Shown here one piece after another: positions 1,017-60,169 of a stretch of DNA of 64,000 nt (within the stretch, counting starts at the first letter, position 1; each line of letters opens with the position of its first letter). Source of the stretch: a virus. Location of the stretch: positions 26,000 through 89,999 of the IMG/VR virus record IMGVR_UViG_3300027782_004428; one strand, given 5' to 3'. Under the pieces are notes generated by a model, which had not been told where the DNA came from, ran no database searches, and saw nothing but the letters and a program-made list of their open reading frames with translations. The translations under genes were made by a program, and so were the position numbers.

Positions 1017-1022
1017 TATTTA
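1017..1022 (-). promoter_or_regulatory. putative late promoter box TAAATA
   Basis: TAAATA on the minus strand ends 6 bases before the phosphoesterase ATG at 1010. It matches the T4-type late promoter core. Confidence 0.45.
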
Positions 1023-1034
1023 AAAGGAAACAAC

Positions 1035-5262: not shown

Positions 5263-5287
5263 CCATTAATTTCAAATGCTGTATAAT
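5259..5287 (+). promoter_or_regulatory. sigma70-type promoter, leaderless geometry
   Basis: TTGACC (5259-5264), 17-base spacer, TATAAT (5282-5287). The ATG at 5294 starts 6 bases after the -10, so the transcript should begin at or next to the start codon. Confidence 0.8.
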
Positions 5288-5293
5288 TATAGC

Positions 5294-6325: not shown

Positions 6326-6584
6326 TTGGATTCGAAGTGACTACAAAACTAACCCACTTAGGTTTTTCGTGGAAGTACTGGCTTGGGCTGTGTCTATTGG
6401 GTGCAGTATTACGATGGCTGCCACTGTACCTAATCCCCCTCTCGTGGTACTTTACCCTATATGGATTAGTGGTTGTGCTATGTATGCTTGGGCTAGTTGG
6501 ACTCGTCAATCGTTTGGTATGTTGGCCAACTACATCCTCTTAGTCAGTATTGACACAGTGGGCCTAATTAGAATGCTATCTTAG
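6297..6584 (+). CDS. conserved phage membrane protein
   Basis: A 95-residue protein from the ATG at 6297, overlapping the end of uvsE by 29 bases. It has FDWIRSDYKTNPLRFFVE, then three hydrophobic stretches, including GCSITMAATVPNPP and LVVLYPIWISGCAMYAW. It closely resembles a small inner-membrane hypothetical protein conserved in T4-like cyanophages. Function unknown. The competing shorter frame at 6322 is judged a shadow. Confidence 0.7.
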   Translation: MNNIFLNIFDWIRSDYKTNPLRFFVEVLAWAVSIGCSITMAATVPNPPLVVLYPIWISGCAMYAWASWTRQSFGMLANYILLVSIDTVGLIRMLS

Positions 6585-6608
6585 TAATATCATTGTAATA
6601 TATACGCC

Positions 6609-6616
6609 TATAAATA
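6609..6616 (+). promoter_or_regulatory. putative late promoter TATAAATA (exact T4 consensus)
   Basis: Perfect TATAAATA in the 150-base gap between the membrane protein and the amidotransferase-like gene. A rho-independent terminator follows about 55 bases later, so it would produce only a short RNA. Confidence 0.5.
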
Positions 6617-6621
6617 AATGC

Positions 6622-6692
6622 AACCGACCACAATGATAGAGTGGCACTGGAACTCGTAACCAGTAGATACCCCAAAATTTGGGGTATTTTTT
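6622..6692 (+). ncRNA. candidate ~70-nt late small RNA
   Basis: Bounded by the TATAAATA box at 6609-6616 and the terminator at 6667-6692. It contains a hairpin with stem ACTGG (6646-6650) and CCAGT (6660-6664) around a 9-base loop. A 13-codon ORF from ATG 6618 also exists but lacks a ribosome binding site. Existence of the RNA is inferred from the promoter and terminator only. Confidence 0.35.
6667..6692 (+). terminator. rho-independent terminator
   Basis: ATACCCC / GGGGTAT stem around AAAATTT, followed by a T run. It ends transcription before the late promoter of the amidotransferase-like gene. Confidence 0.8.
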
Positions 6693-6724
6693 GTGTCATA
6701 AAACTGTCAAAAAATCACGGTCAC

Positions 6725-6730
6725 TAAATA
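6725..6730 (+). promoter_or_regulatory. putative late promoter, leaderless geometry
   Basis: TAAATA followed by CTGA and the ATG at 6735: a gap of 4 bases, placing the T4-type start site at about the first base of the start codon. Confidence 0.65.
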
Positions 6731-6734
6731 CTGA

Positions 6735-7397
6735 ATGAAACCCACCATAGCCCTTTTCCTGCACGACCCTAAGTGCAGTGTACAAAGCGGCAATGGGCTC
6801 ATGCGAGCCCTAGGCGATCATTACAAGTTCAAAATATTTGGTAAAAACAAATTAGAAGACGTGTTCTTTGACGACGTAGACATGATTGCTGTGCCTGGCG
6901 GCTTTGGTGATGCTGATTCATTTGAATCACTTTTTAAACACAATGCCGACCGTGTGCGACAATTTCTTGCTCGTGGCGGCCGATATCTGGGCATCTGCAT
7001 GGGCGCATACTGGGCCGGCAGCGAGTATCTTGATATCTTAGATGGTGTGGATGCAGTACAGTATATCCGACGTCCCGGCACAGATACACATAGACCACAT
7101 GCCAAGAACTTGCCTGTACTGTGGCGAGATCGGTATGGAAACATTGAACCTTGGAGCATGTTTTTTTATGACGGCTGTGCCTTGGTGGGCGACAAAACCA
7201 AGTTTAAGACTATGGCCACATACATCAACGGTGATGCTATGGCCATTATACAAAACAACATTGGATTAATTGGTTGTCATCCTGAAAGTGAACAATTCTG
7301 GTACGACAGTTACTCCTGGATGCGTGGTCGATATCATAGGGGTCAACATCACACACTGTTGTTGGATTTTGTGGACCAAATGTTTGTAACAAAATAG
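6735..7397 (+). CDS. class I glutamine amidotransferase-like (BPL_N family) protein
   Basis: A 220-residue protein of the fold seen in the N-terminal domain of fungal biotin-protein ligase. It has VPGGFGDADSFES (oxyanion strand), YLGICMGAYWAG with the nucleophile Cys and GCHPESEQFW with the catalytic His. The Cys-His pair is intact, so it could hydrolyse an amide or act as a protease-like enzyme, but the substrate is not known. A late promoter box sits 4 bases before the ATG and no ribosome binding site is present. The next gene, PlcP-like, has the same arrangement. Confidence 0.75.
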   Translation: MKPTIALFLHDPKCSVQSGNGLMRALGDHYKFKIFGKNKLEDVFFDDVDMIAVPGGFGDADSFESLFKHNADRVRQFLARGGRYLGICMGAYWAGSEYLDILDGVDAVQYIRRPGTDTHRPHAKNLPVLWRDRYGNIEPWSMFFYDGCALVGDKTKFKTMATYINGDAMAIIQNNIGLIGCHPESEQFWYDSYSWMRGRYHRGQHHTLLLDFVDQMFVTK

Positions 7398-7412
7398 TAA
7401 CACAAATATGCC

Positions 7413-7418
7413 TAAATA
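7413..7418 (+). promoter_or_regulatory. putative late promoter, leaderless geometry
   Basis: TAAATA, then CTAG, then the ATG at 7423. Same 4-base gap as at 6725 and 9861. Confidence 0.65.
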
Positions 7419-7422
7419 CTAG

Positions 7423-8217
7423 ATGCCAAAAATATACCGCAGTATTTTTATCAGTGATGTGCATCTTGGCACAAGAGACTGCAAGGCAGAAGAACTAAAC
7501 AATTTTTTAAAGCACAACTCGTGCGATACCCTGTACCTAGTGGGTGACATCATTGACGCCTGGAAGATACAACAAAACCGGTGGCGATGGAAACAAAGCC
7601 ACACCAATGTGGTACGTCGTATACTGGGTCATGCCAAACGCGGCACTCGCGTGGTATTCATAGCAGGCAATCATGATGAATTCCTGCGTCCCATGATACC
7701 ATATGGTTTTAGTTTTGGACTAATAGAGATTCAAAATCAAACTGAACACATTGGTGCAGACGGCCGACATTATCTTGTGGTGCATGGAGACCTGTTTGAT
7801 GGTATCACAAGACTGGCACCGTGGATAGCATTTTTAGGAGACCGAGCATATGACTTTATTCTTGCGCTTAATAGCCGATTTAATTGGCTACTGCATCGTT
7901 TTGGTATTGGGTACTTTAGTCTTAGCCAGTACCTTAAAAAGCGAGTAAAGAAGGCTGTAGACTTTATTTTTCACTTTGAAAAAAATCTAGCCAATTACTG
8001 TCGAAAGCGCGGCTACGACGGTGTCATATGCGGACACATACATCACGCAGAAATAAAAGAGATCAACGGCGTGATTTACATGAATGACGGCGATTGGGTT
8101 GAGTCATGCACAGCACTGGTAGAACATCATGACGGTGCTTGGGAGATTGTAACATGGACACGAAAAAATGACCAAGAAGATACTGATAATAACAGACAAC
8201 TTACCGGATCAGATTAA
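7423..8217 (+). CDS. PlcP-like phospholipase C / LpxH-family metallophosphoesterase
   Basis: The 264-residue protein shows every metallophosphoesterase block: SDVHLG (Asp12, His14), VGDIID (Asp42), GNHDE (82-86), VVHGD and CGHIHHAE. The stretch SLSQYLKKRVK followed by NDGDWVESCTALVEHHDG matches proteobacterial PlcP, annotated either as UDP-2,3-diacylglucosamine diphosphatase or as the phosphate-starvation phospholipase C that splits phospholipids to diacylglycerol. Overlap with an Agt-like glycosyltransferase, the usual bacterial partner of PlcP, favours the phospholipase reading. It has no signal peptide, so it acts at the cytoplasmic face. The main alternative is a true LpxH acting in lipid A synthesis. 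Confidence 0.8.
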   Translation: MPKIYRSIFISDVHLGTRDCKAEELNNFLKHNSCDTLYLVGDIIDAWKIQQNRWRWKQSHTNVVRRILGHAKRGTRVVFIAGNHDEFLRPMIPYGFSFGLIEIQNQTEHIGADGRHYLVVHGDLFDGITRLAPWIAFLGDRAYDFILALNSRFNWLLHRFGIGYFSLSQYLKKRVKKAVDFIFHFEKNLANYCRKRGYDGVICGHIHHAEIKEINGVIYMNDGDWVESCTALVEHHDGAWEIVTWTRKNDQEDTDNNRQLTGSD

Positions 8218-9178
8218 TGGTGTGGTCACCACTTACAAGAACATTGAGGCTTGTGCGGTACTGGATGGTTATACTGTGGATTATATTGACCCCGGGCGGT
8301 TCCGCTATGTTGATTGTCCTGGCTACAACGAAGTCAAACTTGCCATTCCGCGGGCAATGGGCAAGAAGATCGAAGAGATTGATCCGGATCATATCCACAT
8401 CGCCACAGAAGGTCCTCTTGGTCTGTGGGCTAGAAAGTATCTTTCAATATGCGATTATAGGTATAACACCGCTTATCATACTAAGTTTCCTGAAGGTCTA
8501 AAAAAGTTATTTGGTATTCCCGAAGCAGTGACTTGGCCGCTGGTGCGTTGGTTCCACAAGCATTCGGGAAAAGTTCTAACCACAACCGAAACCATGGTAC
8601 GTGAATTACAATCACACGGGTTTCGGGGCGAAATTGTTCCGTGGACTCGTGGTGTAGACCGTACAATCTTTAATCCCACTCACAGACAAAAAACTATCAG
8701 TCGCTACATCTTGTGTGTTAGTCGTGTAAGTAAAGAAAAGAATCTTGAAAAGTTTCTTGAGATGGACTATCCAGGTTTCTTAAAAATCATGGTAGGTGAT
8801 GGACCCATGCTGGAAACCTATCGTCGGCAGTATCCTGCGGTTCACTTTACAGGATTCAAAACAGGAGTAGATCTAGCCAAATACTATGCCAATGCCGAAG
8901 TATTTGTGTTTCCTAGCCAGTGGGAAACATTTGGCATTGTAATGATCGAAGCCATGGCTTGCGGCACACCTGTCGCTGCATATCCATGTCAAGGCCCAGA
9001 AGATGTTATTGACGAAGGTGTCACTGGCTGTATGAATGCGGACTTAAAGCAGGCCGTCACTGATTGTTTGTTTTTGAATAGAAATCAAGTATGGTCGGGT
9101 AGTCAACGTTGGTCATGGGATCGTGCCTGGGCGATATTCAGAGACAATCTAATTCCGGCGAAGCCGAGCAAGTCCTAG
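8168..9178 (+). CDS. Agt-like GT4 glycosyltransferase (glycolipid synthesis)
   Basis: A 336-residue GT-B retaining glycosyltransferase of family 4. The N-terminal TDNLPDQINGVVTTY loop and HIATEGPLGLWARKY are typical of diacylglycerol glycosyltransferases (Agt, SqdX, MgtA). VPWTRGVDRTIFNP and YILCVSRVSKEKNLEKF open the donor domain, and ETFGIVMIEAMACGTPV is the E-x7-E nucleotide-sugar site. It overlaps the PlcP-like gene by 50 bases, so the two are coupled. The expected product is a monoglycosyl-diacylglycerol made from the diacylglycerol released by PlcP. Sugar specificity is unknown. Its 3' end overlaps the convergent desaturase gene by 30 bases. Confidence 0.82.
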   Translation: MTKKILIITDNLPDQINGVVTTYKNIEACAVLDGYTVDYIDPGRFRYVDCPGYNEVKLAIPRAMGKKIEEIDPDHIHIATEGPLGLWARKYLSICDYRYNTAYHTKFPEGLKKLFGIPEAVTWPLVRWFHKHSGKVLTTTETMVRELQSHGFRGEIVPWTRGVDRTIFNPTHRQKTISRYILCVSRVSKEKNLEKFLEMDYPGFLKIMVGDGPMLETYRRQYPAVHFTGFKTGVDLAKYYANAEVFVFPSQWETFGIVMIEAMACGTPVAAYPCQGPEDVIDEGVTGCMNADLKQAVTDCLFLNRNQVWSGSQRWSWDRAWAIFRDNLIPAKPSKS

Positions 9179-9856
9179 TGTTCTGAACAGGCTGAGCCAC
9201 ATCCAGCCTATATCAAATTCATACCAGTTCTTAGAGAGGCGGGCACTCGCTGGGTCCAAGTGGTGGTTGTTGTGCAACTCTTCACCGCCAATAACAATAC
9301 CCCAAGGCACAATATTACGACTATGATCTTTAGTTTTGCCATTTCTATATCCAATCCAATGTCCAACGCCGTTTATGACTCCGGCTGCCCAGAAAGGTAT
9401 CCATATCATCTGGATGCCCCAGATTACCGGACCCCACCATCCAAACACCAAGACGTCTAGCACAAAGAGAATGCCAATGCCAAGTCTAGAGTAAGGCTGG
9501 TATACGTGAAGCTCCATCCAATCAGCAGGAGTACCACGACCGTATGTATCAACCATAGTTTTATCTTTTGATGCCGCATGATATAGTACTGCCCCTTTAA
9601 ATAATACCTGCCATATACCGTACACATGAGGGGTATGCGGATCACCTTCCACATCACTGTATCTGTGATGCTTGCGATGTATGGCCACCCATTGCTTGGT
9701 TACCATGCCTGTGGTCAGCCATAACCAAAATCTCATGAAATGTTCAAGTGCAGGATGAAACTCTATGCCCTTGTGGGCCTGGCCACGATGCAAATACAAA
9801 GTGACACAGACGATGGTAATGTGTGTCATTACCAATGTTGCTATTAATTCTATCAT
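9149..9856 (-). CDS. membrane fatty acid desaturase (delta-9 type) 1
   Basis: A 235-residue integral membrane di-iron desaturase. The three histidine boxes are present: HRGQAH (H-x4-H), HRKHH (H-x2-HH) and LHNNHH (H-x2-HH), with GHWIGYRNG supplying an extra His as in acyl-CoA and acyl-lipid delta-9 enzymes. Four hydrophobic segments flank the boxes. It should insert a double bond in acyl chains at the inner membrane using host electron carriers. A late promoter box lies 4 bases before the ATG. It faces the PlcP-Agt pair tail to tail. Confidence 0.9.
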   Translation of the reverse strand: MIELIATLVMTHITIVCVTLYLHRGQAHKGIEFHPALEHFMRFWLWLTTGMVTKQWVAIHRKHHRYSDVEGDPHTPHVYGIWQVLFKGAVLYHAASKDKTMVDTYGRGTPADWMELHVYQPYSRLGIGILFVLDVLVFGWWGPVIWGIQMIWIPFWAAGVINGVGHWIGYRNGKTKDHSRNIVPWGIVIGGEELHNNHHLDPASARLSKNWYEFDIGWMWLSLFRTLGLARLRRN

Positions 9857-9860
9857 TGTG

Positions 9861-9866
9861 TATTTA
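9861..9866 (-). promoter_or_regulatory. putative late promoter, leaderless geometry
   Basis: Minus-strand TAAATA followed by CACA and the ATG at 9856 (4-base gap). Confidence 0.65.
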
Positions 9867-9869
9867 ACG

Positions 9870-9890
9870 AAAAAGCCCCTCTCGGGGCTG
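9870..9890 (-). terminator. rho-independent terminator
   Basis: AGCCCC GAGA GGGGCT then TTTTT on the minus strand, just after the stop of the basic protein gene (9893). Confidence 0.8.
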
Positions 9891-9892
9891 AT

Positions 9893-10144
9893 TTATTTTG
9901 CAGGGGGTTTCCGTACTCGGGGCTTCTTGGCCGCCACTGCTGGTTTCGCAACAGGTGCTGCTTTGGGACGAGCCGGTGCTCTTGGCTTTTTGGCAGGAGC
10001 AGTTGTGGCCACTGGAACGGGTTCCGGAGCAATTTCACTTGCCTTGGGAAACGGCCAATCAGTGCTGGGTGCCTCAACTTTGTACGGTGCTGAAGTATCT
10101 GGGTGTTTTGGTTTGGCAAAAAAGCCTTTTAAAAATCGTAGCAT
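9893..10144 (-). CDS. Pro/Ala/Lys-rich basic protein
   Basis: 83 residues. A short hydrophobic/basic N-terminus (MLRFLKGFFAKPKHP) is followed by a low-complexity tail of Ala, Pro, Lys and Arg resembling histone H1-like or ribosome-associated tails. It may bind nucleic acid, but nothing specific is recognised. A good AGGAG lies upstream, and a minus-strand TAAATA box sits 18 bases before the start. The sequence AGGAGAACATTATG around its start is identical to that of the divergent phasin gene. Confidence 0.7.
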   Translation of the reverse strand: MLRFLKGFFAKPKHPDTSAPYKVEAPSTDWPFPKASEIAPEPVPVATTAPAKKPRAPARPKAAPVAKPAVAAKKPRVRKPPAK

Positions 10145-10162
10145 AATGTTCTCCTGTATAGT

Positions 10163-10168
10163 TATTTA
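10163..10168 (-). promoter_or_regulatory. putative late promoter box TAAATA (leadered)
   Basis: AATAAATAACTATA on the minus strand, 18 bases before the basic-protein ATG, with AGGAG between. Confidence 0.5.
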
Positions 10169-10193
10169 TTAGTGATAGCTCACTAGAGAAATG

Positions 10194-10208
10194 TGTTGCA
10201 TTGCAACA
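10194..10208. promoter_or_regulatory. inverted repeat overlapping -35, possible operator
   Basis: TGTTGCA T TGCAACA is a perfect 7-bp inverted repeat centred on 10201. It covers the likely -35 of the phasin promoter, a typical repressor position. Confidence 0.4.
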
Positions 10209-10225
10209 TCATTGTCATATATAAT
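10196..10225 (+). promoter_or_regulatory. sigma70-type promoter of the phasin gene
   Basis: TTGCAT (10196-10201), 18-base spacer, TATAAT (10220-10225). The start site would be near 10232, at the foot of a strong hairpin. Confidence 0.55.
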
Positions 10226-10230
10226 AGTAC

Positions 10231-10258
10231 ATAGGACGCTGGATAGGCCGGGTCCTAT
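10231..10258 (+). promoter_or_regulatory. 5'-terminal mRNA hairpin
   Basis: ATAGGAC pairs with GTCCTAT, and CTGG with CCGG inside it around an ATAGG loop. It lies at the predicted 5' end of the phasin mRNA and may protect it from decay. Confidence 0.5.
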
Positions 10259-10286
10259 GGCAACTTGCTTAATTAAGGAGAACATT

Positions 10287-10565
10287 ATGTTTACAGCAGA
10301 CGCATTCATCGACACCGTTCAAACCGGTAAAAAAACTTTCGTTAACACATTCGTCACAAACGAAACCGCCAAAGAAGCAATGATCAAGTTCATTGATTCA
10401 CAAGCAGAGTACACCAAAAAGGCCGCCAAGGTTGGCATGGATGCATTCACCACAGTCACAAGCGAAGCTGTTAAGGCCGCTCAAGAAGCTACCAAATTTG
10501 ACTATGTGAAATTTGGCGAAGGCATCATGAAGGCTTACACAGCCCAAACAGCCAAAGCAAAGTAA
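10287..10565 (+). CDS. phasin-like protein
   Basis: Start at 10287 behind AAGGAGAACATT. The 92-residue protein is almost entirely helical and amphipathic (KAAKVGMDAFTTVTSEAVKAAQ), without Cys or Trp, the profile of small phasins that coat polyhydroxyalkanoate granules. Phage copies are uncommon. An alternative is a generic amphipathic coiled-coil scaffold. A strong terminator follows directly, so it is a single-gene unit with a structured leader. Confidence 0.55.
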   Translation: MFTADAFIDTVQTGKKTFVNTFVTNETAKEAMIKFIDSQAEYTKKAAKVGMDAFTTVTSEAVKAAQEATKFDYVKFGEGIMKAYTAQTAKAK

Positions 10566-10580
10566 TACTCAAGTACTACC

Positions 10581-10609
10581 AAAAAAGCCCCAAAATCTGG
10601 GGTTTTTTT
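10581..10609 (+). terminator. rho-independent terminator
   Basis: GCCCC / GGGG stem around AAAATCT with seven Ts, 16 bases after the phasin stop. Confidence 0.85.
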
Positions 10610-10613
10610 ATGG

Positions 10614-10642
10614 TTGACCAATAAATGCCCAAATGCTATAAT
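10614..10642 (+). promoter_or_regulatory. sigma70-type early promoter
   Basis: TTGACC, 17-base spacer beginning AATAAATGCCC, TGC-extended TATAAT (10637-10642). Confidence 0.85.
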
Positions 10643-10672
10643 ATACACATAAACAGCAAAAAGGAGCCAGAT

Positions 10673-10936
10673 ATGAAAGCACTACAAGCCTACATTGATC
10701 GTCAAAATAAGTGGAATGTAATTTTTAAAGGTCGTCAATATGAGATTGATACTTTTGAAGGTCGCAAGCAAGTGGCTCAAATGATTGATGCCGCACTGAG
10801 TCCTGAAAATTTGACCTGCGATGGTGAACTACCCCGTAGTCAGGTGCAAGCCCGTTATCGTGAATTGACTGCCGCGGCAAAGGATCTGATTAAGATGGAT
10901 CCAAGGGTTGCCCAGTATATGTACGAGTTTGGTTGA
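10673..10936 (+). CDS. small hypothetical phage protein
   Basis: 87 residues from the ATG at 10673, which follows AAGGAGCCAGAT. Acidic/basic mixed and mostly helical. The pattern NKWNVIFKGRQYEIDTFEGRKQ suggests a small alpha/beta fold. Unknown function. First gene after an early promoter and 36 bases upstream of another. Confidence 0.7.
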   Translation: MKALQAYIDRQNKWNVIFKGRQYEIDTFEGRKQVAQMIDAALSPENLTCDGELPRSQVQARYRELTAAAKDLIKMDPRVAQYMYEFG

Positions 10937-10961
10937 CCAATAAATCCCAATTTGCTATAAT
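10933..10961 (+). promoter_or_regulatory. sigma70-type promoter, near-leaderless
   Basis: TTGACC overlaps the stop codon of the preceding gene; 17-base spacer; TATAAT 10956-10961. The ATG at 10971 is 9 bases beyond the -10. Confidence 0.8.
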
Positions 10962-10970
10962 TACACTATT

Positions 10971-11120
10971 ATGAAGCCCATACATTTCACACTAGCACCC
11001 GTAAAGGAACGTCGTCATCGAGCTCTGTTCGATTCGGCTCTGCCGTTCCGCGGTCGTGTGGAACGTCCCAAGACTGAGTACCGGCGCAAGCCCAAGCACA
11101 AAAATCAAGGTGAAGAATGA
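10971..11120 (+). CDS. short Arg/Lys-rich protein
   Basis: 49 residues, strongly basic (ERRHRALFDSALPFRGRVER, then EYRRKPKHKNQ). The ATG lies 9 bases after the -10 box with no ribosome binding site, so its mRNA is nearly leaderless. The stop overlaps the next start as ATGA. Perhaps nucleic-acid or host-protein binding; not recognised. Confidence 0.6.
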   Translation: MKPIHFTLAPVKERRHRALFDSALPFRGRVERPKTEYRRKPKHKNQGEE

Positions 11121-11362
11121 AACTGGTTATACCTCTGTTGCTGTCACTGTTGGTAGGCTGTGCTTCACAATCTAGTACACCACCAGCGTCAGTTGCGGCC
11201 ATGCCCAATGACTGTGCCAATCGACAAGCAATTATCAATTGGCTAGAAACTCAATCCGCAATTCCTCGACAGGCCTTTGAAAGTGAAAAACACTATGAAC
11301 AAACACGCTCGCAGATTCGTCACCGCTTGTGGCATGTGCGTTATAACTGTCAGCCTGTCTAG
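11117..11362 (+). CDS. small lipoprotein 1
   Basis: 81 residues with a short signal peptide and lipobox LLVGC (Cys15), so it should be lipidated and exported. The mature part ends HVRYNCQPV. The last 68 bases overlap the start of the next lipoprotein gene in another frame, an arrangement reminiscent of Rz/Rz1 spanins, but here both products look like lipoproteins. Function unknown; a role in envelope disruption or superinfection exclusion is speculative. Confidence 0.7.
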   Translation: MKLVIPLLLSLLVGCASQSSTPPASVAAMPNDCANRQAIINWLETQSAIPRQAFESEKHYEQTRSQIRHRLWHVRYNCQPV

Positions 11363-11618
11363 TGGTTGTGCCACTCACCCAGATGCCACCCGCATACCCA
11401 TGGCCACAATAGATCTTAACCACTTTCAAGTTGACTGTAGGGTCAAAGATCAGCAGGTGGCCATGTTGCAAGCCATGCGTCAAACACCCAACGAACAATT
11501 TGGCAGTCGCATGCGAGCCATGAATCCTTTTGTTTGGACCAGCGACCATGATGTGGCATTTAACAATCCCAACAAATACATCAACTATCATCTCAACAAT
11601 TTGAGGTATTGCCCATGA
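11295..11618 (+). CDS. small lipoprotein 2
   Basis: 107 residues from ATG 11295. The signal peptide is followed by lipobox LSSGC. The mature part contains FGSRMRAMNPFVWTSDHD and ends NLRYCP, echoing the end of lipoprotein 1. No match known to me. It overlaps the next gene by ATGA and is part of a four-gene exported-protein run. Confidence 0.7.
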   Translation: MNKHARRFVTACGMCVITVSLSSGCATHPDATRIPMATIDLNHFQVDCRVKDQQVAMLQAMRQTPNEQFGSRMRAMNPFVWTSDHDVAFNNPNKYINYHLNNLRYCP

Positions 11619-12175
11619 AACGACTTCTACTTGCCGCACTGATACCTGCCAGTGTCATGGCAACTGAGTGTGTGCTGAATGATCGAACTGTGACAGCCAG
11701 TGCCGCGCAAATTGAAGAACGATCTGGTCTACGTCAAGAGGTCGTAACAGCACCAGATGGTGCTCGTAGATGCATTGCAAGTTTCAAAGCCAGAATTGGC
11801 GCCTCGTGGTATTGGACACAAGGACAATATGACTGGACAGATGGTCGTCCCCGGGCAGAAGCCTGTGCAGTGGCAGTGGCCCGAGCAGAAGATGCAGTCA
11901 AAACACAAGTTGAACCCACTCATGTTCGCAGTGAAAAGGTTATGATTTGTACAGACCAAAAAGATTTAGAGTTGCTTCGCAGTACCAATCCAGGTAGTGT
12001 GGGACGACTACACCAATTCCGACCTCATCCAGATTTTCCAAAGAGATTCTGGCATAATGGTGCCCAGTGCAAATTCTTTTTGGATAGTGCATTTCGGAAT
12101 CAAGACGTTTATACCTATCAGGGTGTGATATGTCTGGTCCAAAAGGATCAATGGGTAGTGGTTGACAAGTTTTGA
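11615..12175 (+). CDS. secreted periplasmic protein
   Basis: 186 residues from the ATG at 11615, with GAGG upstream. The signal peptide MKRLLLAALIPASVMA precedes TECVLND. Several cysteines could form disulfides in the periplasm (RRCIASF, EACAVAV, MICTDQK, AQCKFF, VICLVQ). SWYWTQGQYDW is a notable aromatic patch. Not recognised. Confidence 0.7.
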   Translation: MKRLLLAALIPASVMATECVLNDRTVTASAAQIEERSGLRQEVVTAPDGARRCIASFKARIGASWYWTQGQYDWTDGRPRAEACAVAVARAEDAVKTQVEPTHVRSEKVMICTDQKDLELLRSTNPGSVGRLHQFRPHPDFPKRFWHNGAQCKFFLDSAFRNQDVYTYQGVICLVQKDQWVVVDKF

Positions 12176-12190
12176 CCATTTGTGTATAAT
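12162..12190 (+). promoter_or_regulatory. sigma70-type promoter
   Basis: TTGACA (12162-12167), 17-base spacer, TATAAT (12185-12190). It overlaps the end of the secreted-protein gene and drives the LPP20-like lipoprotein. Confidence 0.8.
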
Positions 12191-12224
12191 AGAAGTATCG
12201 TGTAACTAACCTGAAAGGTTTTGT

Positions 12225-13040
12225 ATGTTAATCAAACGTTTATCCGTGTTAGCAGTAGCCACAAGTCTTGTGGCATGTGCAAGCACCACGGCACCAAAAG
12301 CCGAAACTGCGACTCCCACTCCGGTGGCTCGTGTGGTTGAAATAGCGCCGCAAGTGGTCCCTGTGCATGCTTATGCAATGCCGGCTCGCCAGGCTCGTGT
12401 GGTGCCACAAGCACCTGAGTGGTATGTCCGCATGCCAGAAGACACCGCAGACATGACATTTGCTGTGGGTACTGCAACATCAACAGATGAGCAGATGGCG
12501 TACGACAAAGCACGTATGGCCGCAGAGCGCAAACTAGTTGAACAAATGTATGCTAGAATCACCACACAGACCAACAGCTTCAAGGCTGATCGTGGTAGTG
12601 CTACAATTGAAAACTACCAGCAAGTCACACGCAAAAATGCACGTGGCGAACTGAGTGGCGCCCAACGTGTGGATAGTCAAGTCACACATGATGGACAATC
12701 CTACAAGGTCTATGTACTATTGCGACTGCCAGTAGGTGCCAGCAACACAATGCAAACACGTCGTGATCAACAACGTATGCAACGTGAAGGGGAAACCCGT
12801 GGTCGTGCCGCAGAGCGTGACATGGACACAAACGAAGCACGTGACGCACGAATTGAACAAGAAAATACTCGTTCACTTGAACGCAGTCTTGAACCCCAGA
12901 GCCGAGTTACCCCTGTAACTGTACCTACCACTTCGGGAGAACTTAAACTACTGGATGTTGACAACGCTGAATATCGGCAAAAACGAGCAGAAGCACTACA
13001 AAAACCAGGTGCTGTAGTAGGACAGACAGTAGTTAGATAA
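12225..13040 (+). CDS. LPP20-family lipoprotein
   Basis: 271 residues. Signal peptide and lipobox LVACAS (Cys18), then a Pro/Thr-rich linker, then PEWYVRMPEDTADMTFAVG with DKARMAAERKLVEQM, the conserved core of LPP20-type outer-membrane lipoproteins. The C-terminal third is highly charged and Arg-rich (QQRMQREGETRGRAAERDMD), probably helical. Predicted to sit on the inner face of the outer membrane. Its role for a phage is unclear; receptor masking is possible. Confidence 0.75.
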   Translation: MLIKRLSVLAVATSLVACASTTAPKAETATPTPVARVVEIAPQVVPVHAYAMPARQARVVPQAPEWYVRMPEDTADMTFAVGTATSTDEQMAYDKARMAAERKLVEQMYARITTQTNSFKADRGSATIENYQQVTRKNARGELSGAQRVDSQVTHDGQSYKVYVLLRLPVGASNTMQTRRDQQRMQREGETRGRAAERDMDTNEARDARIEQENTRSLERSLEPQSRVTPVTVPTTSGELKLLDVDNAEYRQKRAEALQKPGAVVGQTVVR

Positions 13041-15290: not shown

Positions 15291-15884
15291 ATGCCAAATC
15301 TAGTACCAATCGTGCTTGAACAAACCTCAAAAGGTGAACGCAGTTATGACATCTACAGCCGATTGCTAAAGGATCGTGTGATCATGCTGGACACAGAAGT
15401 TTCAGAACACACTGCCAGTTTGCTGGTAGCACAAATGTTGTTTTTGGAAAGTGACAATCCAGACAAAGATATTTCCTTATACATCAACTCACCTGGAGGA
15501 TCAGTCACAGCAGGCATGGCCATCTATGATACCATGCAGTTTATTAAATGTGATGTACAGACCATTGTGATGGGACAGGCCTGCAGCATGGGAAGTCTGC
15601 TAAGTACAGCAGGAGCCGCAGGCAAACGTATGATCCTGCCCCATGCCCGACACATGATTCACCAACCATCAGGTGGTGCTCATGGACAAGCCACAGACAT
15701 CCAAATCCAAGCACGTGAAATTCAAAAGATGAAAGAATATCTGACCACGATCTATGTCAAGCACAACTCAGCGGGTAAAACCTTTGAGCAGTTGAGTGCA
15801 GACATGGAACGTGATTTCTTTATGAGTGCTCAAGAAGCCCTGGACTACGGACTAGTGGACAAGATACTTGACCGCCGTGCCTAA
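15291..15884 (+). CDS. clpP: ATP-dependent Clp protease proteolytic subunit ClpP
   Basis: 197 residues from the ATG at 15291, which follows AAGGAGACCCT; longer upstream frames lack such a site. Classic ClpP features: [34 protein letters not shown], the nucleophile in [10 protein letters not shown], the His in MIHQPSGG and the Asp region in [18 protein letters not shown]. Active-site residues are complete, and the length fits mature ClpP. It may assemble with host ClpA/ClpX or replace host ClpP to redirect protein turnover. Confidence 0.93.
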
Positions 15885-17166
15885 CTCAAACATATTCTGC
15901 AATACTCCGTGGTATGAGCTACACATCTATTGGGATGGTAGTTTAGGTATCTGTTGTCAAGAGTCTCACAAACTCTATGACGACAACAGTTACAACATTG
16001 CCACGACTAGTATTGCAGAATGGTTTAACTCTGACCCTGTACGACATTTTAGGCAAGGTGTCTTGGGCGATCGCCCGGTGAGTGCGTGTTCTAGATGTTA
16101 TCAAGAAGAGATCGTGGGCGGCAATAGTCGTCGCATCAAAAGCAATCAAAAAAGTGTTATCTTCCAGCAGGCGTTTGAGGACAGTTTTGAACAAAGTCCT
16201 GGCCGTAGACATTTTGATGAGTCTGGAACCACTGGTACCCATCCCATTGACATACATGTGGATCTTGGAAACTATTGCAACCTGGCCTGCAAGATGTGCG
16301 ATGCTCAGGCGTCCAGTATCATTGCTTCACAACAGGTCAAGTGGGGGATTGAGTCTAGTAGACAATACCTTGGCACAGATTGGACACAAGATCAACAGGT
16401 GTGGAACAGTTTCCTAACGCAACTGATACACATACCTAAATTAAACAACATTCACTTCATGGGCGGTGAAACACTGTTGACTCGCCGCTTTGAGGATCTT
16501 GTGGATCACTTGATTGCACATGATCGCCTGGATGTGTGTTTCTCTTTTGTGACCAACGGTACTACATTCAAGCCTGAGTTGATGACCAAACTAAAAAAAT
16601 TTCGCAGAGTGGGCATAGAAGTCAGCATAGAAACTGTGGATGCACACAATGTTTACCAACGTCAGGGCACAGACAATCAGTTGGTCATGGCCAATCTTGA
16701 TCGATATCAAGATTTGTGCAACGGATCAAACATAACACTCACAGCAAGACCTGCGGTCAGTGCCCTAACCATTGGATACTTTCCGGGACTGCTGGAATAC
16801 TGCTTGGATAAAAACTTAATAGTCAAGAGTTTGTTGGTTACCAATCCACAATTCTTAAACGCAGTGATCTTGCCCGACACAGTGAAACAACAATATCTCA
16901 AGCATTATCAAGTTCTACTAGACAGATTAAATAGTGTACAAGTTCCCAAGGACTACAATGCCAGTGATCCAAACAATCATGACATGATTGTGAAAGAACA
17001 GGTGCAAATGTGCATGAATATTTTGCGTCAACCGGCGCCCCCAGACGTAGAACAACAGCGCAAACTCATGGTAGAGCATTGTCGCAAATGGGATCAGGTA
17101 TATGGGTATGATGCTAGAACATTGTATCCGGAACTGGCAGAGGTATGGACACAGTATGACTACTAA
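15877..17166 (+). CDS. radical SAM protein with twitch/SPASM-like regions (1)
   Basis: About 429 residues. The start is uncertain: GTG at 15877 or TTG at 15868, both overlapping clpP. An N-terminal cysteine block ([25 protein letters not shown]) resembles an auxiliary cluster binding site. The radical SAM motif is CNLACKMC near residue 140, followed by FMGGETLL and VTNGTTF. The family uses SAM cleavage to modify peptides or small molecules. No peptide substrate gene is recognised nearby. It overlaps the next gene by 11 bases. Confidence 0.82.
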
Positions 17167-22079: not shown

Positions 22080-22970
22080 ATGCACATAGAACCCACCAGC
22101 AGATGCACTTTATCTTGTCCAGCCTGTCCTAGAACATGGTTTTCTGACAGATTAAATCGCGCATTTCCCAAACAAGATTTAGACTTAGATCATCTTGAAC
22201 ATTTTTTGGATTGCAAAAGCGGTCATCAAATCAAATCATTCATGCTCAATGGCAATCATGGTGATCCGATTTATTATCCTGATCTTTTGCCCCTGATAGC
22301 TCGATTTAGAAATACCAAATCATTTAAAATCAGCACCAATGGCAGTTACCAAACACCAAAATTCTGGCAAGAGTTATCAAACCAGTTAACAGACAAAGAC
22401 ACTGTGTTTTTTAGCATCGATGGACTTGAGCACAACAATCATTTGTATCGAAAAAACAGTGACTGGAAATCAATCATGCAAGGACTGGAAATCATGTCTC
22501 AGGGTCCGGCTCGCGTGGTTTGGAAAACTCTGATATTTTCTTATAACGCAAATGAACTAGATCAAATTCAAGATGTTGCACACAGTCGCGGGGTAGAATT
22601 CATTGCCGAATCAACCAGCAGATTTGGCGATGATGCCTTGGTCCCGGATACCCACCTGATTGATACCAGTCGTTTGTACAAAAATATTCAAGAACAAGTA
22701 ACCATCCAACCACAGTGTAGCACACAAGAATATATTTCAGCAGATGGATACTATTGGCCGTGTTGTCTAATCACTTCAATGTTTACTTTACATAAAACAG
22801 AATTATGGAAACAAAGGAAAAATTGGGCTATTCAAAATCAGACGTTAGATCAAACTAGGTTACATTTGAACCACTGGAAACAATCTATTTTGGACAGCCC
22901 AGAGACTGCGCATGATGTGTGTAAAATGAGTTGTAAACCAGGTCAGGAATTTGGTTGGTCCAAAATGTGA
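22080..22970 (+). CDS. radical SAM protein with SPASM-like C-terminus (2)
   Basis: 296 residues. The SAM cluster motif CTLSCPAC is at residues 9-16, very near the N-terminus. LNGNHGDPIYYPDLL stands where GGEP is usual, and ISTNGSYQ follows. The C-terminal cysteines (IQPQCSTQEYISADGYYWPCC, DVCKMSC) would bind an auxiliary cluster. Substrate unknown. No ribosome binding site; a late promoter box ends 4 bases before the ATG. Confidence 0.82.
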   Translation: MHIEPTSRCTLSCPACPRTWFSDRLNRAFPKQDLDLDHLEHFLDCKSGHQIKSFMLNGNHGDPIYYPDLLPLIARFRNTKSFKISTNGSYQTPKFWQELSNQLTDKDTVFFSIDGLEHNNHLYRKNSDWKSIMQGLEIMSQGPARVVWKTLIFSYNANELDQIQDVAHSRGVEFIAESTSRFGDDALVPDTHLIDTSRLYKNIQEQVTIQPQCSTQEYISADGYYWPCCLITSMFTLHKTELWKQRKNWAIQNQTLDQTRLHLNHWKQSILDSPETAHDVCKMSCKPGQEFGWSKM

Positions 22971-39854: not shown

Positions 39855-40118
39855 ATGACAAGAGATGAAGTTAAATCAGTTATTTTAAAAATTGCCAAAG
39901 AAAAATATAATCTAGATATTGATAATTTTGCAGAAGATGCGCCTCTGGCAGAGTTGAAAGATATCAATCCCAAAGTAGACTCCATGGCAGTGATTGAATT
40001 GATTTTTGACGTTGAGGACGAGCTGGGCATCAAGGTAAACAACAATGACATGAGTCAACCTGCAAACCTGGCAGAAGTCATTGACAGTTTGACACAAGCA
40101 GTGAATACTAAAAAATGA
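39855..40118 (+). CDS. acyl carrier protein
   Basis: 87 residues. The four-helix carrier pattern is intact with VDSMAVIELIFDVEDELGI. Ser43 in DSM would take the phosphopantetheine from a host transferase. It departs from the housekeeping AcpP consensus (DSLDTVE), so it is probably dedicated. AAAGGTAAATT precedes the ATG. Its stop overlaps the desaturase start (ATGA), tying it to desaturase and ketosynthase in one operon. Confidence 0.88.
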   Translation: MTRDEVKSVILKIAKEKYNLDIDNFAEDAPLAELKDINPKVDSMAVIELIFDVEDELGIKVNNNDMSQPANLAEVIDSLTQAVNTKK

Positions 40119-40870
40119 TGCTGTTCCAAGCAGACCCAGAACGGGTCAAGCAGGTAATGGTAACGCAGTTGATTGTGGCTGCCATGAGTGTGCCAGTACT
40201 TGTGCATTTTTGGCATTGGTGGTATGCTGTATACCTAATGGGATTTTATAGTTTCTTGTTGTTTGTCAGTCACCATGCAGGCTTGCACAGATACTTTTCG
40301 CATCGCAGTTACGCAGTAAATGAGTTTTGGCATGCGTTCCTTTGCTTGACCAGTTGTTTGGTCTGCTTTGGCTCGCCAGTGGGCTATGCAGTAATACACA
40401 GAGCACATCATGTACACACCGATACAGAACAGGATCCACACGCACCAAATCATATAGGTTTTTTCAATGTCATATTCTTTAATTGGAGTCTTCGGGATCT
40501 CACAATGTGGAGTGTGTTCAGAGAACTACGTGACCCTTGGTTAAAGTTCACACATGATTATTACACACTGATTATTATTATTTTTGCACTAGTTTTGTTT
40601 GCCATTGATCCTGTACTGCCCTTGTGTTACAGTGTAGGCGCTGTGGGTGCATTGTTTGCCATGGGCTTTGTTAATACTGTGGGCCATACTCAAGGGGCAA
40701 CTACCTATTGTAATCACCATGACGGTGGCAATAGTAGTAACAGTTATCTAGCAGTAGCAATTGGCGAATGGCACAACAACCATCATGCCCGTCCACAGCA
40801 ATGGAACCAACGTGAGCGATGGTGGGAAGTGGACTATGCGGCACAGTTTATTCGATTAATTAAAAAATGA
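40115..40870 (+). CDS. membrane fatty acid desaturase 2
   Basis: 251 residues. Histidine boxes HRYFSH, HRAHH and WHNNHH, plus GHTQGATTYCNHH with further His. Four to five membrane segments. Related to the 9149-9856 enzyme but clearly divergent. It sits between the ACP and ketosynthase genes with ATGA overlaps on both sides, so it may act on chains bound to the phage ACP rather than on free lipids. That substrate is inference. Confidence 0.9.
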   Translation: MMLFQADPERVKQVMVTQLIVAAMSVPVLVHFWHWWYAVYLMGFYSFLLFVSHHAGLHRYFSHRSYAVNEFWHAFLCLTSCLVCFGSPVGYAVIHRAHHVHTDTEQDPHAPNHIGFFNVIFFNWSLRDLTMWSVFRELRDPWLKFTHDYYTLIIIIFALVLFAIDPVLPLCYSVGAVGALFAMGFVNTVGHTQGATTYCNHHDGGNSSNSYLAVAIGEWHNNHHARPQQWNQRERWWEVDYAAQFIRLIKK

Positions 40871-42009
40871 ACAGAGTTGTCATTACAGGCGTAGGTGCAA
40901 TTACTCCACTAGGCAATTCTTATACAGAAATTGTTGCGGCCATGTTTGCTGGCACAAGCGGCATTAAGTTTGGAGAGGTAGTTCAGGCCAATGTTGCCAA
41001 AGTAAAAATGGATATAGACAGTCAATTTGACCACTATGATCTAGCGGCAACTGATTTGTTTGGACGTGCGGCCTGGCTGGCATATCAACAGGCACGAACC
41101 GATGCTGATACTTCAGTAGACGGAATTTACATTGGAACAGGTGCAGGTGCTGCACACGAAGTCAGTCGAGCCATATTGGAATATAACGAACGAGGTCGTG
41201 CAAGACCCAACAGTCTTGTGGCATCAATGAGTAGTGGAGCGGCCAGTTTCATTGCCGCAAGGGATAATATTGCTGGTCCAGTGTTTACACATAGTGCGGC
41301 CTGCTCGTCAAGTAGCGTAAGTATTGGAGAAGCATACCGAGCCATCAAGTACGGCGAAGTGAATGTGATGGCCGCAGGTGGTAGCGAGTTTTGTATTAGC
41401 CCTGTGCTGGTTGCACAATGGCGTGCCATGCGAGCCATGGGCACACGGTGTAGTCCTTTTGGTGCAGACCGTGATGGTATCATACTAGGCGAAGGTAGCG
41501 TGGTTTATATCTTGGAACAACGTGAACGTGCAGTAGCTCGTGGTGCTCGAATATACGCAGAGATTGTGGGCTATGGAATCAGTTGTGGCAGTGAGACTGT
41601 TACCAAACCCAGTGAAGATTCTCAAGTGGCCGCAATGAAATCTGCAATTAAAGATATTGATCCGGAGCAAGTGACTTATATCAATGCACACGGAACAGGT
41701 ACTCCAGTTGGCGATCTAGTAGAATTAGGTAGCATACAACGAGTGTTTGGATCGGGTGTGCCCATCAGTTCAACAAAAGCCATACACGGGCATCTGTTGG
41801 GCAATTCGGGCGCCATGGAACTGATTGCATGTTTGGGAGTGCTTGCAAGTGATCAAGTTATTCCCAATTGGAATCTAACTGACCCAGATCCTGCAATACC
41901 CAACGGCACGTACTTGCCAATCAAAACAGTCGGCTATCCACAAGATGTGTGTTTGAATAATAGTTTTGCGTTTGGTGGCACCAATGTTGTGTTGGCTCTG
42001 GCAAAATGA
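40867..42009 (+). CDS. beta-ketoacyl-ACP synthase (FabF/KAS II-like)
   Basis: 380 residues, complete condensing-enzyme fold. It has VVITGVGAITPLGN at the N-terminus, nucleophile Cys146 in SAACSSSSVSIGEA, His275 in NAHGTGTPVGD, Lys304 and His309 in STKAIHGHLLGNSG, and the C-terminal NNSFAFGGTN. Slightly shorter than FabF (about 410). It should elongate acyl-ACP by two carbons using malonyl-ACP from the host. Coupled to the ACP and desaturase genes. Confidence 0.92.
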   Translation: MNRVVITGVGAITPLGNSYTEIVAAMFAGTSGIKFGEVVQANVAKVKMDIDSQFDHYDLAATDLFGRAAWLAYQQARTDADTSVDGIYIGTGAGAAHEVSRAILEYNERGRARPNSLVASMSSGAASFIAARDNIAGPVFTHSAACSSSSVSIGEAYRAIKYGEVNVMAAGGSEFCISPVLVAQWRAMRAMGTRCSPFGADRDGIILGEGSVVYILEQRERAVARGARIYAEIVGYGISCGSETVTKPSEDSQVAAMKSAIKDIDPEQVTYINAHGTGTPVGDLVELGSIQRVFGSGVPISSTKAIHGHLLGNSGAMELIACLGVLASDQVIPNWNLTDPDPAIPNGTYLPIKTVGYPQDVCLNNSFAFGGTNVVLALAK

Positions 42010-42266
42010 AAGACTTGTACTCCACTCCCGAAGCCAGACTGGACACCATACTGGGCGAGGTCTCTTTTTGGGCCAGGATGCAACGGTGCAGAACATCAGA
42101 GGAAGGCAAGAAGCATTGTCGCACAGGCGCAGACACAATCACATGGTTTAGAGACACTTGGGGTATACAACTGCTACCCTCGGATGATACCATATTTGGA
42201 TTCCTGCGTGAAGTCCGCATTGCGGATGAACAGAAGTATATGATATTTTTATTAAAGTGGGCATGA
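42006..42266 (+). CDS. hypothetical protein
   Basis: 86 residues, ATGA-coupled to the ketosynthase. Contains GEVSFWARMQRCRTSEEG and TITWFRDTWGIQLLPSDD. No recognised domain. Its place in the lipid operon could make it a partner, but it may simply be a phage hypothetical. Confidence 0.6.
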   Translation: MKDLYSTPEARLDTILGEVSFWARMQRCRTSEEGKKHCRTGADTITWFRDTWGIQLLPSDDTIFGFLREVRIADEQKYMIFLLKWA

Positions 42267-42946: not shown

Positions 42947-42950
42947 CATT

Positions 42951-43505
42951 ATGCATGTTAGTATAAGACAAGATATCAAATTATTAGAAGCTTCAACCCG
43001 ACCGGCCAAGCTGGAAACTACGCCTTTGCCTTACGGTGAAAAAGACCTTGAGCCAGTGCTGAGTAAAGAAAGTTTGGAATATCATTACGGACATTTGGCC
43101 AAAGGCTATGCCAAACGCTACAATGCAGGAGAAGGCAATGCGGATTTTAATCGTGCTGGCAGTTTCCTACACAATAAGTTTTTCCCTCAGCTTCGGGCTC
43201 CCAAGGGTGCAAATCGGCCACGTGGTGCTGTACTTGCACTCATAGAAGAAAAGTTTGGTACATATGAAGATTTTCGAGAAGCCTTTAAAGAAACTGCAAT
43301 GAAGATTCAAGGATCTGGTTGGGTTTACTTGAGTACTGGGGGAGATATCAAGACCATTGCCAATCATGCTGTTCGTACAGATATATGCGTACTAGTAGAT
43401 TGGTGGGAGCATGTTTGGGCCACTGATTATCAGTGGGACAAAGAACGTTACTTAGACAATATCTGGAAGATCATTGACTGGGACGTTTGCAACGAAAGAC
43501 TATAA
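42951..43505 (+). CDS. Fe/Mn-type superoxide dismutase
   Basis: 184 residues. [22 protein letters not shown] carries the first His ligand, [13 protein letters not shown] the second, and [15 protein letters not shown] the Asp and third His. GSGWVYLS matches the SOD core. The helical hairpin between the first two ligands is shortened compared with cellular FeSOD (about 193 residues), a feature of the phage version here. It removes superoxide in the cytoplasm. Late box 4 bases before the ATG; stop overlaps the Fe-S carrier gene. Confidence 0.88.
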
Positions 43506-43825
43506 TGAAATTACAAACCGGTGCTGTGGAAAAATTGCGTGAGTTAGTTGCCGAAGAAGGCAACCCCAATCTCATGCTACGAGTATTTGTACAAGGCGGA
43601 GGCTGTTCAGGCATGAGTTATGGCTTCACGTTTGATGAAGTGCAAAACGAAGATGACTTTGACTTTGCCTACGAAGATGTCCGGGTGGTGATTGATTCAA
43701 TGAGCATGCAATATCTTCAAGATTCTTCCATTGACTACAAAGAAGATTCAATGGGCGCAAGTTTTGTAATCGACAACCCACAAGCACAAACCACATGCGG
43801 GTGTGGATCTAGTTTCTCAATTTAG
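43505..43825 (+). CDS. A-type iron-sulfur carrier protein (ErpA/IscA-like)
   Basis: 106 residues from ATG 43505, overlapping the SOD stop by one base. The three cluster cysteines are present: [15 protein letters not shown] and [12 protein letters not shown] at the C-terminus. The family delivers Fe-S clusters to apo-proteins. It could mature the several phage radical SAM enzymes. Convergent with the next gene. Confidence 0.9.
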
Positions 43826-58169: not shown

Positions 58170-59073
58170 AAAATACCGTCCCAGTACCGTGGATGGTTAT
58201 GTGTTTGTGGACGATGCACAACGTGAGCAGGTGACACAATGGATCCGGGACGGAAGTATACCGCATCTGATGTTGAGTGGTTCAGCAGGCACAGGAAAAA
58301 CAACCTTGGCCAAACTGTTGATCAATGAATTAGGTGTGGACGAATATGATGTGATGTATGCCAACGGATCCAAGGAAGCTCGCAAAGTTGAATGGGTAGA
58401 CAAGTTAATCTCATTCTGTCAGACCATGCCGTTTGGCAAATTCAAGGTGGTGCTGATCGACGAAGCAGACTACATGAATCCAAACTCGGTACAACCTGCA
58501 CTACGTAACCTAATGGAAGATTACAGTCAGACCGTGAGATTTATTCTCACTTGTAATTATCCATCAAAGATTATTCCACCCTTGCACTCACGTTGTCAAG
58601 GGTTTCACATTACCAAAACAGATCACACAGAGTTCACTGCTAGAGCAGCCACTGTGCTGGTTACAGAAGGCGTGGAGTTTGATCTGGATGTGTTGGACAC
58701 TTATGTCAAAGCCACATACCCAGACCTGCGCAAGTGTTTGAACTTGTTACAGCCTAACTCAGTATCGGGCACACTGGCTCCGCCCGCGGCCAGTGACAAG
58801 AGCGTACGAGATTGGAAACTGGAATGTGTGGACTTGTTCAAACACGGACAGATCAAACAAGCACGAACCCTGCTGTGTCAAAGTTCTGATCCGGAAGAGT
58901 CCAGTGAGATATTCACCTGGATGTACAACAACTTGGATCTATGGGGCCGGACTCCTGAGCAACAGGATCAAGCTGTTGTGATCATTCGTGATGGTATGGC
59001 CAAGATTCCCTTGGTTGCAGATCAAGAAATCAACCTGAGTGCCACCTTAATTGAACTTGGCCAAATCACTTGA
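58150..59073 (+). CDS. sliding clamp loader large subunit (gp44-like)
   Basis: 307 residues, AAA+ ATPase. EKYRPSTVDGYVF (RFC box II), SGSAGTGKTTLAKLL (Walker A), VVLIDEADYMNP (Walker B), ILTCNYPSKIIPPLHSRC (sensor 1 and the SRC arginine finger) are all present. The C-terminal collar is helical. It loads the sliding clamp for phage DNA replication and, in T4, for late transcription, which fits the late promoters seen here. Confidence 0.93.
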   Translation: MKELWVEKYRPSTVDGYVFVDDAQREQVTQWIRDGSIPHLMLSGSAGTGKTTLAKLLINELGVDEYDVMYANGSKEARKVEWVDKLISFCQTMPFGKFKVVLIDEADYMNPNSVQPALRNLMEDYSQTVRFILTCNYPSKIIPPLHSRCQGFHITKTDHTEFTARAATVLVTEGVEFDLDVLDTYVKATYPDLRKCLNLLQPNSVSGTLAPPAASDKSVRDWKLECVDLFKHGQIKQARTLLCQSSDPEESSEIFTWMYNNLDLWGRTPEQQDQAVVIIRDGMAKIPLVADQEINLSATLIELGQIT

Positions 59074-60169
59074 ACCTGTAATTGATCCCAACCATAGAAT
59101 AACATTCTTATTGGATTGGGAACTCACAATGAAGTGCAATTTAGATTGCACTTATTGTCCAACAGGTATCTACGGTGGTCATGATAATTCACAACGTCAT
59201 CCCCCTTTAGAAGATTGTTTGCGTACCATTGACTTTATGTTTGAGTACGCAGACATCTACATGTCCAGCAAACCCAAAAGTATCAAGTATGTGATACTGA
59301 ATGTGTATGGTGGCGAAGCATTGCATCATCCCGACATTGTGAAAATATTAAGTGTGTTACGCAAGCGGTATGAATCTTATCAAGATTGTTGGCATCTCAC
59401 TGTTACCACTACTACTAACGCCATTATTGCCCCTGCCCGACTAGATCAAATCATCCCACTGATTGATGAGTTTACAGTGAGTTATCATACTGAAAACACC
59501 CCAAAACAAAAACAGCAGTTTCGAGATAATTTGTTAAAAATCAAATCTGCAGGTGTTAGACAAAAATGCATAGTACTCATGCATGCAGAACCAGATCGAT
59601 TTGCGGACGCACAAGAAATGATTGCATGGTTAACACTCAATGACATCAAATACCTGCCACGTCAACTGGACCATCATCTCGACTGGGAGGAGTTTAACTA
59701 CAATCAGCAGCAAGTGGTTTGGTTTGAAGGCTTGTACAAAAAATCTCTCAATCACGCTGTGATGCGCAATGACAAAGCAGATCTGGCAGACACTGGCAGA
59801 GCCTGTTGCGGTGGTCGTAGTTTGTGCGCTGACCAAAATCGTAGAGATCCTCAAAAGTTTGTTTCAAATAAATTTCCCGGATGGTACTGCTCCGTAAATC
59901 ATTTCTTTTTGTATGTGAAACAAGTGAATGGCGAAGTTTATGTCAATAAAGATTGCAAAATGAATTATGATGGCACAGTGGGACCAATTGGTAATTTAAA
60001 TGATATTGAGCCAATTCTAGTGCAGGCACGTGACACGGACAAGCCCGTTATACGCTGTGCCAACGAACAATGTCGTTGCGGACTTTGTGCGCCCAAGGCC
60101 GAGAACCTGGATACATATAAAACCATAATGAGGAAATATGAGATACCTAATCCTGACGTACTACACTAA
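59051..60169 (+). CDS. radical SAM protein (4), full length
   Basis: 372 residues from TTG 59051 (another TTG lies at 59057; no ATG is available). CNLDCTYC near residue 29, LNVYGGEALHHPDIV and VTTTTNAII. The C-terminal auxiliary cysteines (RACCGGRSLC, WYCSVN, NKDCKMN, CANEQCRCGLC) are many, enough for two extra clusters. Same family as the split gene at 26342-27197. Substrate unknown. Confidence 0.82.
   Translation: MNLAKSLEPVIDPNHRITFLLDWELTMKCNLDCTYCPTGIYGGHDNSQRHPPLEDCLRTIDFMFEYADIYMSSKPKSIKYVILNVYGGEALHHPDIVKILSVLRKRYESYQDCWHLTVTTTTNAIIAPARLDQIIPLIDEFTVSYHTENTPKQKQQFRDNLLKIKSAGVRQKCIVLMHAEPDRFADAQEMIAWLTLNDIKYLPRQLDHHLDWEEFNYNQQQVVWFEGLYKKSLNHAVMRNDKADLADTGRACCGGRSLCADQNRRDPQKFVSNKFPGWYCSVNHFFLYVKQVNGEVYVNKDCKMNYDGTVGPIGNLNDIEPILVQARDTDKPVIRCANEQCRCGLCAPKAENLDTYKTIMRKYEIPNPDVLH

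Follow-up and report, generated by a model that had tools for sequence, protein, structure and literature searches.

Gene layout and phage origin of the locus

The stretch of DNA analysed here, which we refer to as the window, comprises 64,000 nucleotides of an 89,999-base IMG/VR virus record, itself a genome fragment. Three intact genes on the + strand at positions 39855-42009 encode an acyl carrier protein (ACP), a desaturase (DES) and a beta-ketoacyl-ACP synthase (KS), with an ATGA overlap at each junction (Table 1). Open reading frames, starts and ATGA overlaps across 39855-42266 are as given in a first-pass annotation made from the sequence alone. That annotation also joined to the set an 86-residue hypothetical protein, which has no match in Pfam or PHROG. 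Its translational coupling to KS holds in the window, but its membership of the cassette does not: relatives lie 5' of the ACP gene in one other carrier (L011) and several kb 3' in another (L010), and the protein is thereby rejected as a fourth cassette member. A promoter and terminator scan gave a result at chance level.

Table 1. Features of the window, with positions counted from its first nucleotide
Feature	Position	Strand	Remarks
UDP-glucose/GDP-mannose dehydrogenase-like protein	2614-3852		PHROG match, 3e-88
PlcP-like calcineurin-type metallophosphoesterase	7423..8217	+	PF00149
GT4 glycosyltransferase	8168..9178	+	PF00534/PF13439; overlaps PlcP-like gene
Second SCD-type desaturase	9149..9856	-	PF00487, E = 6.9e-13; His boxes conserved; away from cassette
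Radical-SAM proteins (three)	15868-17166, 22080-22970, 59051-60169
ACP	39855..40118	+	87 aa; phosphopantetheine Ser43 in atypical N-P-K-V-D-S-M motif
DES, predicted SCD/DesA-type membrane fatty-acyl desaturase	40115..40870	+	251 aa; ATG overlaps ACP stop (ATGA)
KS, FabF-like beta-ketoacyl-ACP synthase (condensing enzyme)	40867..42009	+	380 aa; ATG overlaps DES stop (ATGA)
Hypothetical protein	42006..42266	+	86 aa; ATGA overlap with KS
Fe/Mn superoxide dismutase, then A-type Fe-S carrier protein	42948-43825		Conserved near cassette in L011

The record derives from the genome of a tailed phage, of which it is a fragment. It carries genes for both the large and small subunits of RNR, an ATP-dependent DNA ligase, virion proteins, a gp44-type clamp loader, a baseplate wedge match, PhoH, an endolysin-like SleB and a phage NAD synthase. 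The concern that the contig might be a piece of host DNA is thus answered, and host contamination is ruled out by the phage genes that flank the cassette together with independent assemblies of the same synteny.

Identity and ancestry of the three proteins

The ACP scores above the cut-off of the PP-binding family PF00550 (E = 3.7e-5, 24.3 bits, cut-off 20.8), and Asp42-Ser43 is invariant among 16 aligned ACPs, in agreement with its first description as an atypical ACP with Ser43. We found the signature K-[LVI]-D-S in 13 of 13 phage ACPs and in 0 of 57 bacterial ACPs, the latter taken from bacterial KS loci; the bacterial ACPs of ACP-KS pairs have the canonical G-x-D-S-L motif. PPTase genes (PF01648) are present above the cut-off in the records of two other carriers (L040 and L044); in another two (L016 and L131) the ACP gene is directly preceded by a weaker AcpS-like gene. 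Because several relatives encode phage PPTases, phosphopantetheinylation of the phage ACP is likely. The window's record yielded no PPTase match, which in a fragment is weak evidence of absence, and the window phage may thus rely on a host PPTase.

DES also exceeds the cut-off of its family (PF00487, FA_desaturase; E = 1.9e-9, 38.1 bits, cut-off 29.7). Its three His boxes, the feature by which it had first been recognised (H58/H63, H95/H98/H99 and H220/H223/H224), are invariant among 10 desaturases, as are N187/H191, and its AlphaFold2 model (pLDDT 88.8) superimposes on the SCD1 structure 4zyo with a TM score of 0.77. His boxes, additional Asn/His ligands and predicted SCD fold together point to a membrane desaturase of SCD/DesA type.

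The KS matches both the N- and C-terminal ketoacyl-synt families (PF00109/PF02801; E = 1.6e-30 and 6.3e-29) and a solved FabF (phmmer, E = 3.6e-67). The four residues singled out in the first-pass annotation of a FabF-like enzyme, Cys146, His275, Lys304 and His309, are invariant in 13 phage and three bacterial KSs, and the Cys-His-His triad plus Lys fits condensing enzymes of FabB/FabF type. Sequence similarity amply supports this identification; the predicted structure, with a mean pLDDT of 35.5 (six sequences), was set aside. KS-like acyltransferases exist, and a match of our KS to one of them, cispentacin AmcF, falls under that model's cut-off; no reductive enzymes are encoded beside the KS, and ACP-KS pairs without a desaturase occur. 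It could therefore be supposed that the KS transfers acyl groups without chain elongation, the ACP delivering them to protein, RNA or glycan. We consider this very improbable, as none of the four residues that make up the decarboxylative condensing site varies among the 13 phage KSs.

We reconstructed a tree (IQ-TREE) of 97 KSs, 14 of them from phages; the bacterial sequences, selected by pattern, are a sample. The 14 phage KSs share a common ancestry, forming a single clade (support 100/100) on a stem of 1.05 changes per site. This clade falls within a well-supported group (100/99) whose other members are proteobacterial, nitrospirotal and acidobacterial KSs, with housekeeping FabF placed elsewhere. 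The sister placement of the clade on this long stem is weak (86/17). With this separate placement and a score of 290.5 bits against the housekeeping FabF equivalog TIGR03150 (NCBIfam), below the cut-off of 493.75, a housekeeping FabF is ruled out. Several other KS matches were set aside: 29 from the annotated phage collection (less than 40% identity, many of them on short contigs that lack annotation) appear to be contaminating bacterial FabF, as do most IMG/VR matches that score below the phage clade (contigs of 5-13 kb), and KSs near desaturases in L141, L153, L169 and L189 belong to unrelated types in the tree.

The bacterial KSs that neighbour the phage clade are themselves coupled to an ACP. 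One such cluster (L048) includes a type III PKS, a methyltransferase and an FAD monooxygenase, and another (L058) an aminotransferase, a hydrolase and a FemAB-like protein; these pairs look like dedicated rather than housekeeping elongation pairs. They resemble the phage unit in their coupled ACP and KS and in their related KS lineages, but no such desaturase was detected alongside them and KS identity is at most 40%. Among 369 bacterial genomes of the class of L048, the 30 best desaturase loci had neither ACP nor KS within flanks of about 1.5 kb, and thus no bacterial source of an ACP-DES-KS unit was found.

Recurrence in viral contigs and relation to described systems

The search for the same gene order in other viral contigs, proposed with the first-pass annotation, placed KSs of the phage clade in 25 other IMG/VR contigs (profile scans), several of which represent one virus assembled repeatedly; all carriers of the cassette are metagenomic contigs. 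Wherever a contig extends far enough, the ACP gene lies 5' of the KS gene, either directly or via desaturases. The order ACP-DES-KS is found in the window, L010, L011-L014 and L015, and is preceded by a PPTase gene (PPTase-ACP-DES-KS) in L016, L129, L130, L131, L256, L261 and L275; the variants are ACP-DES-DES-DES-KS (L026), ACP-KS (L036-L039 and L044) and ACP-KS-DES (L040 and L041). What had been proposed as a minimal acyl-modifying unit with its own carrier is therefore conserved in many viral contigs, and its key residues are retained rather than lost. ATGA or similar junctions are kept across divergent phages, and dN/dS for ACP, DES and KS is 0.08-0.11 (close-group pairs with unsaturated dS); values of about 0.1 indicate purifying selection on all three genes. 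Four contigs of 138-364 kb (L011-L014) have the same locus, with the order NAD synthase, SleB, small proteins, cassette, WYL_2, superoxide dismutase and Fe-S protein maintained, and T4-type core genes adjoin the unit in others: gp33 coactivator and gp59 in L044, gp59 in L129 and gp32 in L131.

Desaturases are widespread in phages: IMG/VR contains at least 538 related stretches. A membrane-fluidising role has been suggested for them (PMC7300359, PMC7678222). On this basis the cassette might simply boost the host's synthesis of unsaturated lipids, as ordinary auxiliary metabolic genes whose ACP is interchangeable with that of the host. We regard this as improbable. The ACP is strongly divergent and bears its own signature, its gene precedes that of the KS in every intact context, and a phage PPTase accompanies it in several carriers, all of which argues for a dedicated (private) carrier; nor is the KS a housekeeping FabF, by its score and by the tree.

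Stand-alone phage desaturases (PMC7300359, PMC7678222) and phage ACPs (PMC5463345) have been published. The first-pass statement that no phage system with this set had been described stands as regards the full unit: our search of open-access full texts turned up no account of a phage unit of ACP, PPTase, desaturase and KS (subscription papers and preprints being outside the scope). It does not stand for two of the genes, as fabF and a stearoyl-CoA desaturase (SCD) are listed, without analysis, in two genomes of freshwater pelagimyophages, PMP-D or fonsimyophages (PMC7029224). The parallel lies in an aquatic myophage group with both fabF and SCD, several of our carriers having the cassette near T4-type gp33/gp59/gp32. 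The passage in question makes no mention of an ACP, PPTase, operon or mechanism. The window phage differs further in its 45.5% GC and in its radical-SAM genes, a kind reported to be missing from PMP-D. Desaturases of cyanophages (Roitman 2018, as cited in PMC7300359) and of viruses from cold brine are thought to alter host membranes and, like DES, are of SCD type with three His boxes; in the passage concerned they are described alone, without a dedicated ACP, KS or PPTase (PMC7300359). In putative roseobacter prophages ACP and FabF have been reported together as fabG-acpP-fabF (PMC8224337); unlike the window's unit, this set follows the E. coli order and has no desaturase, and it could be host DNA.

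The first-pass annotation had also likened the locus to clusters for alkyne-bearing chains. The JamABC alkyne cassette and polyyne clusters do combine a dedicated ACP with one or more membrane desaturases, as here, and the three desaturases of polyyne clusters recur in L026; both systems need a fatty-acyl-AMP ligase, and polyynes also a thioesterase and a rubredoxin (PMC8406139). The window differs in possessing a KS and in yielding no ligase match (PF00501) in its 90-kb record, itself a fragment. On that count the likeness to JamABC is unsupported and was set aside; a polyyne cluster was likewise rejected, on the missing ligase and the single desaturase of the unit.

Other acyl gene sets were seen in viral contigs. 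In a three-desaturase variant (L043, 9152-10238), a PF10118 metal-dependent hydrolase gene overlaps the end of the KS gene and is followed by a peptidase M15 gene. Arrays of three to five neighbouring desaturases occur in the predicted viral contigs L141, L147, L155, L134 and L189, and in L141 and L189 a divergent KS is also present. The phage contig L182 (IMGVR_UViG_3300009703_000012, 76.9 kb), with a T4-type prohead protease nearby, has about 12 kb of acyl genes (164-12893): ACP, TauD dioxygenase, type III PKS, PPTase, 2OG-Fe oxygenase and seven tandem desaturases. No KS of the phage clade lies within the stretch read, and this set resembles a biosynthetic gene cluster carried by a phage.

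Instead of a membrane lipid, the cassette's product might be a specialised acyl molecule, such as a diffusible fatty-acid signal or a toxin of polyunsaturated or acetylenic type. The nearest bacterial KS-ACP pairs, in L048 and L058, do occupy pathway clusters, the three desaturases of L026 echo those of polyyne clusters, and the gene set of L182 points the same way. Against this, the window's record has no AMP ligase, neither a thioesterase nor a rubredoxin gene was noticed in the neighbourhood of the cassette, the window's unit has only one desaturase, and L182 is a different cluster. We therefore consider a specialised product unlikely.

Other lipid genes and proposed function

The window phage has further lipid genes. 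Its second desaturase is possibly a partner in lipid remodelling; the relatives G002-G005 contain three to five desaturases each. The PlcP-like protein, possibly a partner in lipid renovation, is 57% identical to proteins annotated as UDP-2,3-diacylglucosamine diphosphatase and 48% identical to a protein of the isolated Pelagibacter phage Mosig, in which the PlcP-like gene adjoins a phosphate transporter gene. In order and families, a metallophosphoesterase followed by a GT4 glycosyltransferase, the genes at 7423-9178 match plcP-agt, of which they are a putative counterpart. In marine bacteria the plcP-agt operon has a proven role in membrane lipid remodelling from phospholipid to glycolipid (PMC4796936, PMC8231724). 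Among cassette carriers, strong similarity to the Agt-like GT4 was found in one other record only (L010, a 69% orthologue), most of the others lacking a strong match, which tells against a membrane destination. The dehydrogenase-like protein could be a source of UDP-glucuronate for a glycolipid.

The window's record of about 90 kb contains no glycerolipid acyltransferase (PF01553), fatty-acyl-AMP ligase (PF00501) or SDR reductase (PF13561) match, which is weak evidence given that the record is a fragment. The destination of the acyl group is thus not encoded beside the cassette, and reductase, acyltransferase and ligase steps, if they occur, must be the host's.

We propose that the cassette is a phage-encoded, translationally coupled module for acyl-ACP elongation and desaturation that borrows host FAS, its output probably going into lipids of the membrane or envelope, a reading to which we assign a probability of roughly 0.55. 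In its favour we count the intact domains and catalytic residues, the persistent ATGA junctions, the low dN/dS, the recurrence of the unit with or without a PPTase, and the nesting of the KS clade beside ACP-coupled bacterial KSs. The second desaturase and the PlcP-Agt-like pair in the same phage speak for the membrane destination. As regards substrate, order of steps, desaturation on the ACP, host partners and lipid destination, we infer the following course. A host PPTase, or in relatives a phage PPTase, would convert the phage ACP to its holo form, on which an acyl or malonyl group would be carried, and the KS would lengthen the chain by condensing acyl groups with malonyl-ACP. Host FabD, FabG, FabZ/A and FabI, invoked because no reductase or ligase partner is seen in the phage record, would perform malonyl loading and the reduction and dehydration of the product. 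The membrane desaturase, with O2 and a host electron donor, would introduce one double bond into the chain, and multi-desaturase relatives perhaps several. Host acyltransferases would then pass the unsaturated chain to lipids of the infected cell's membrane or envelope. Unsaturation is not a universal output, as some carriers have ACP-KS without a desaturase.

Given that the unit recurs across many related viruses, it is probable that its carriers produce a particular fatty-acid chain within the host cell. More tentatively, T4-like phages may operate acyl pathways of their own, drawing on a private carrier, a PPTase, a condensing enzyme and between one and several desaturases. The products would be (poly)unsaturated or acetylenic chains specific to the virus and beyond the host's own capacity, serving as membrane building blocks, signals or toxins; we think this possible and clearly less probable than the module proposed above.

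Phage lipid genes have so far mostly been seen as lone desaturases. The cassette directs attention to a broader range of acyl clusters in phages, among them the one with a type III PKS and seven desaturases in tandem (L182), and it makes testable the question of which chain is built and what need of the virus it serves. A private carrier and KS, kept together as a conserved unit and joined in some phages by a PPTase, would imply that phages set up an acyl pathway of their own, beyond tuning that of the host.
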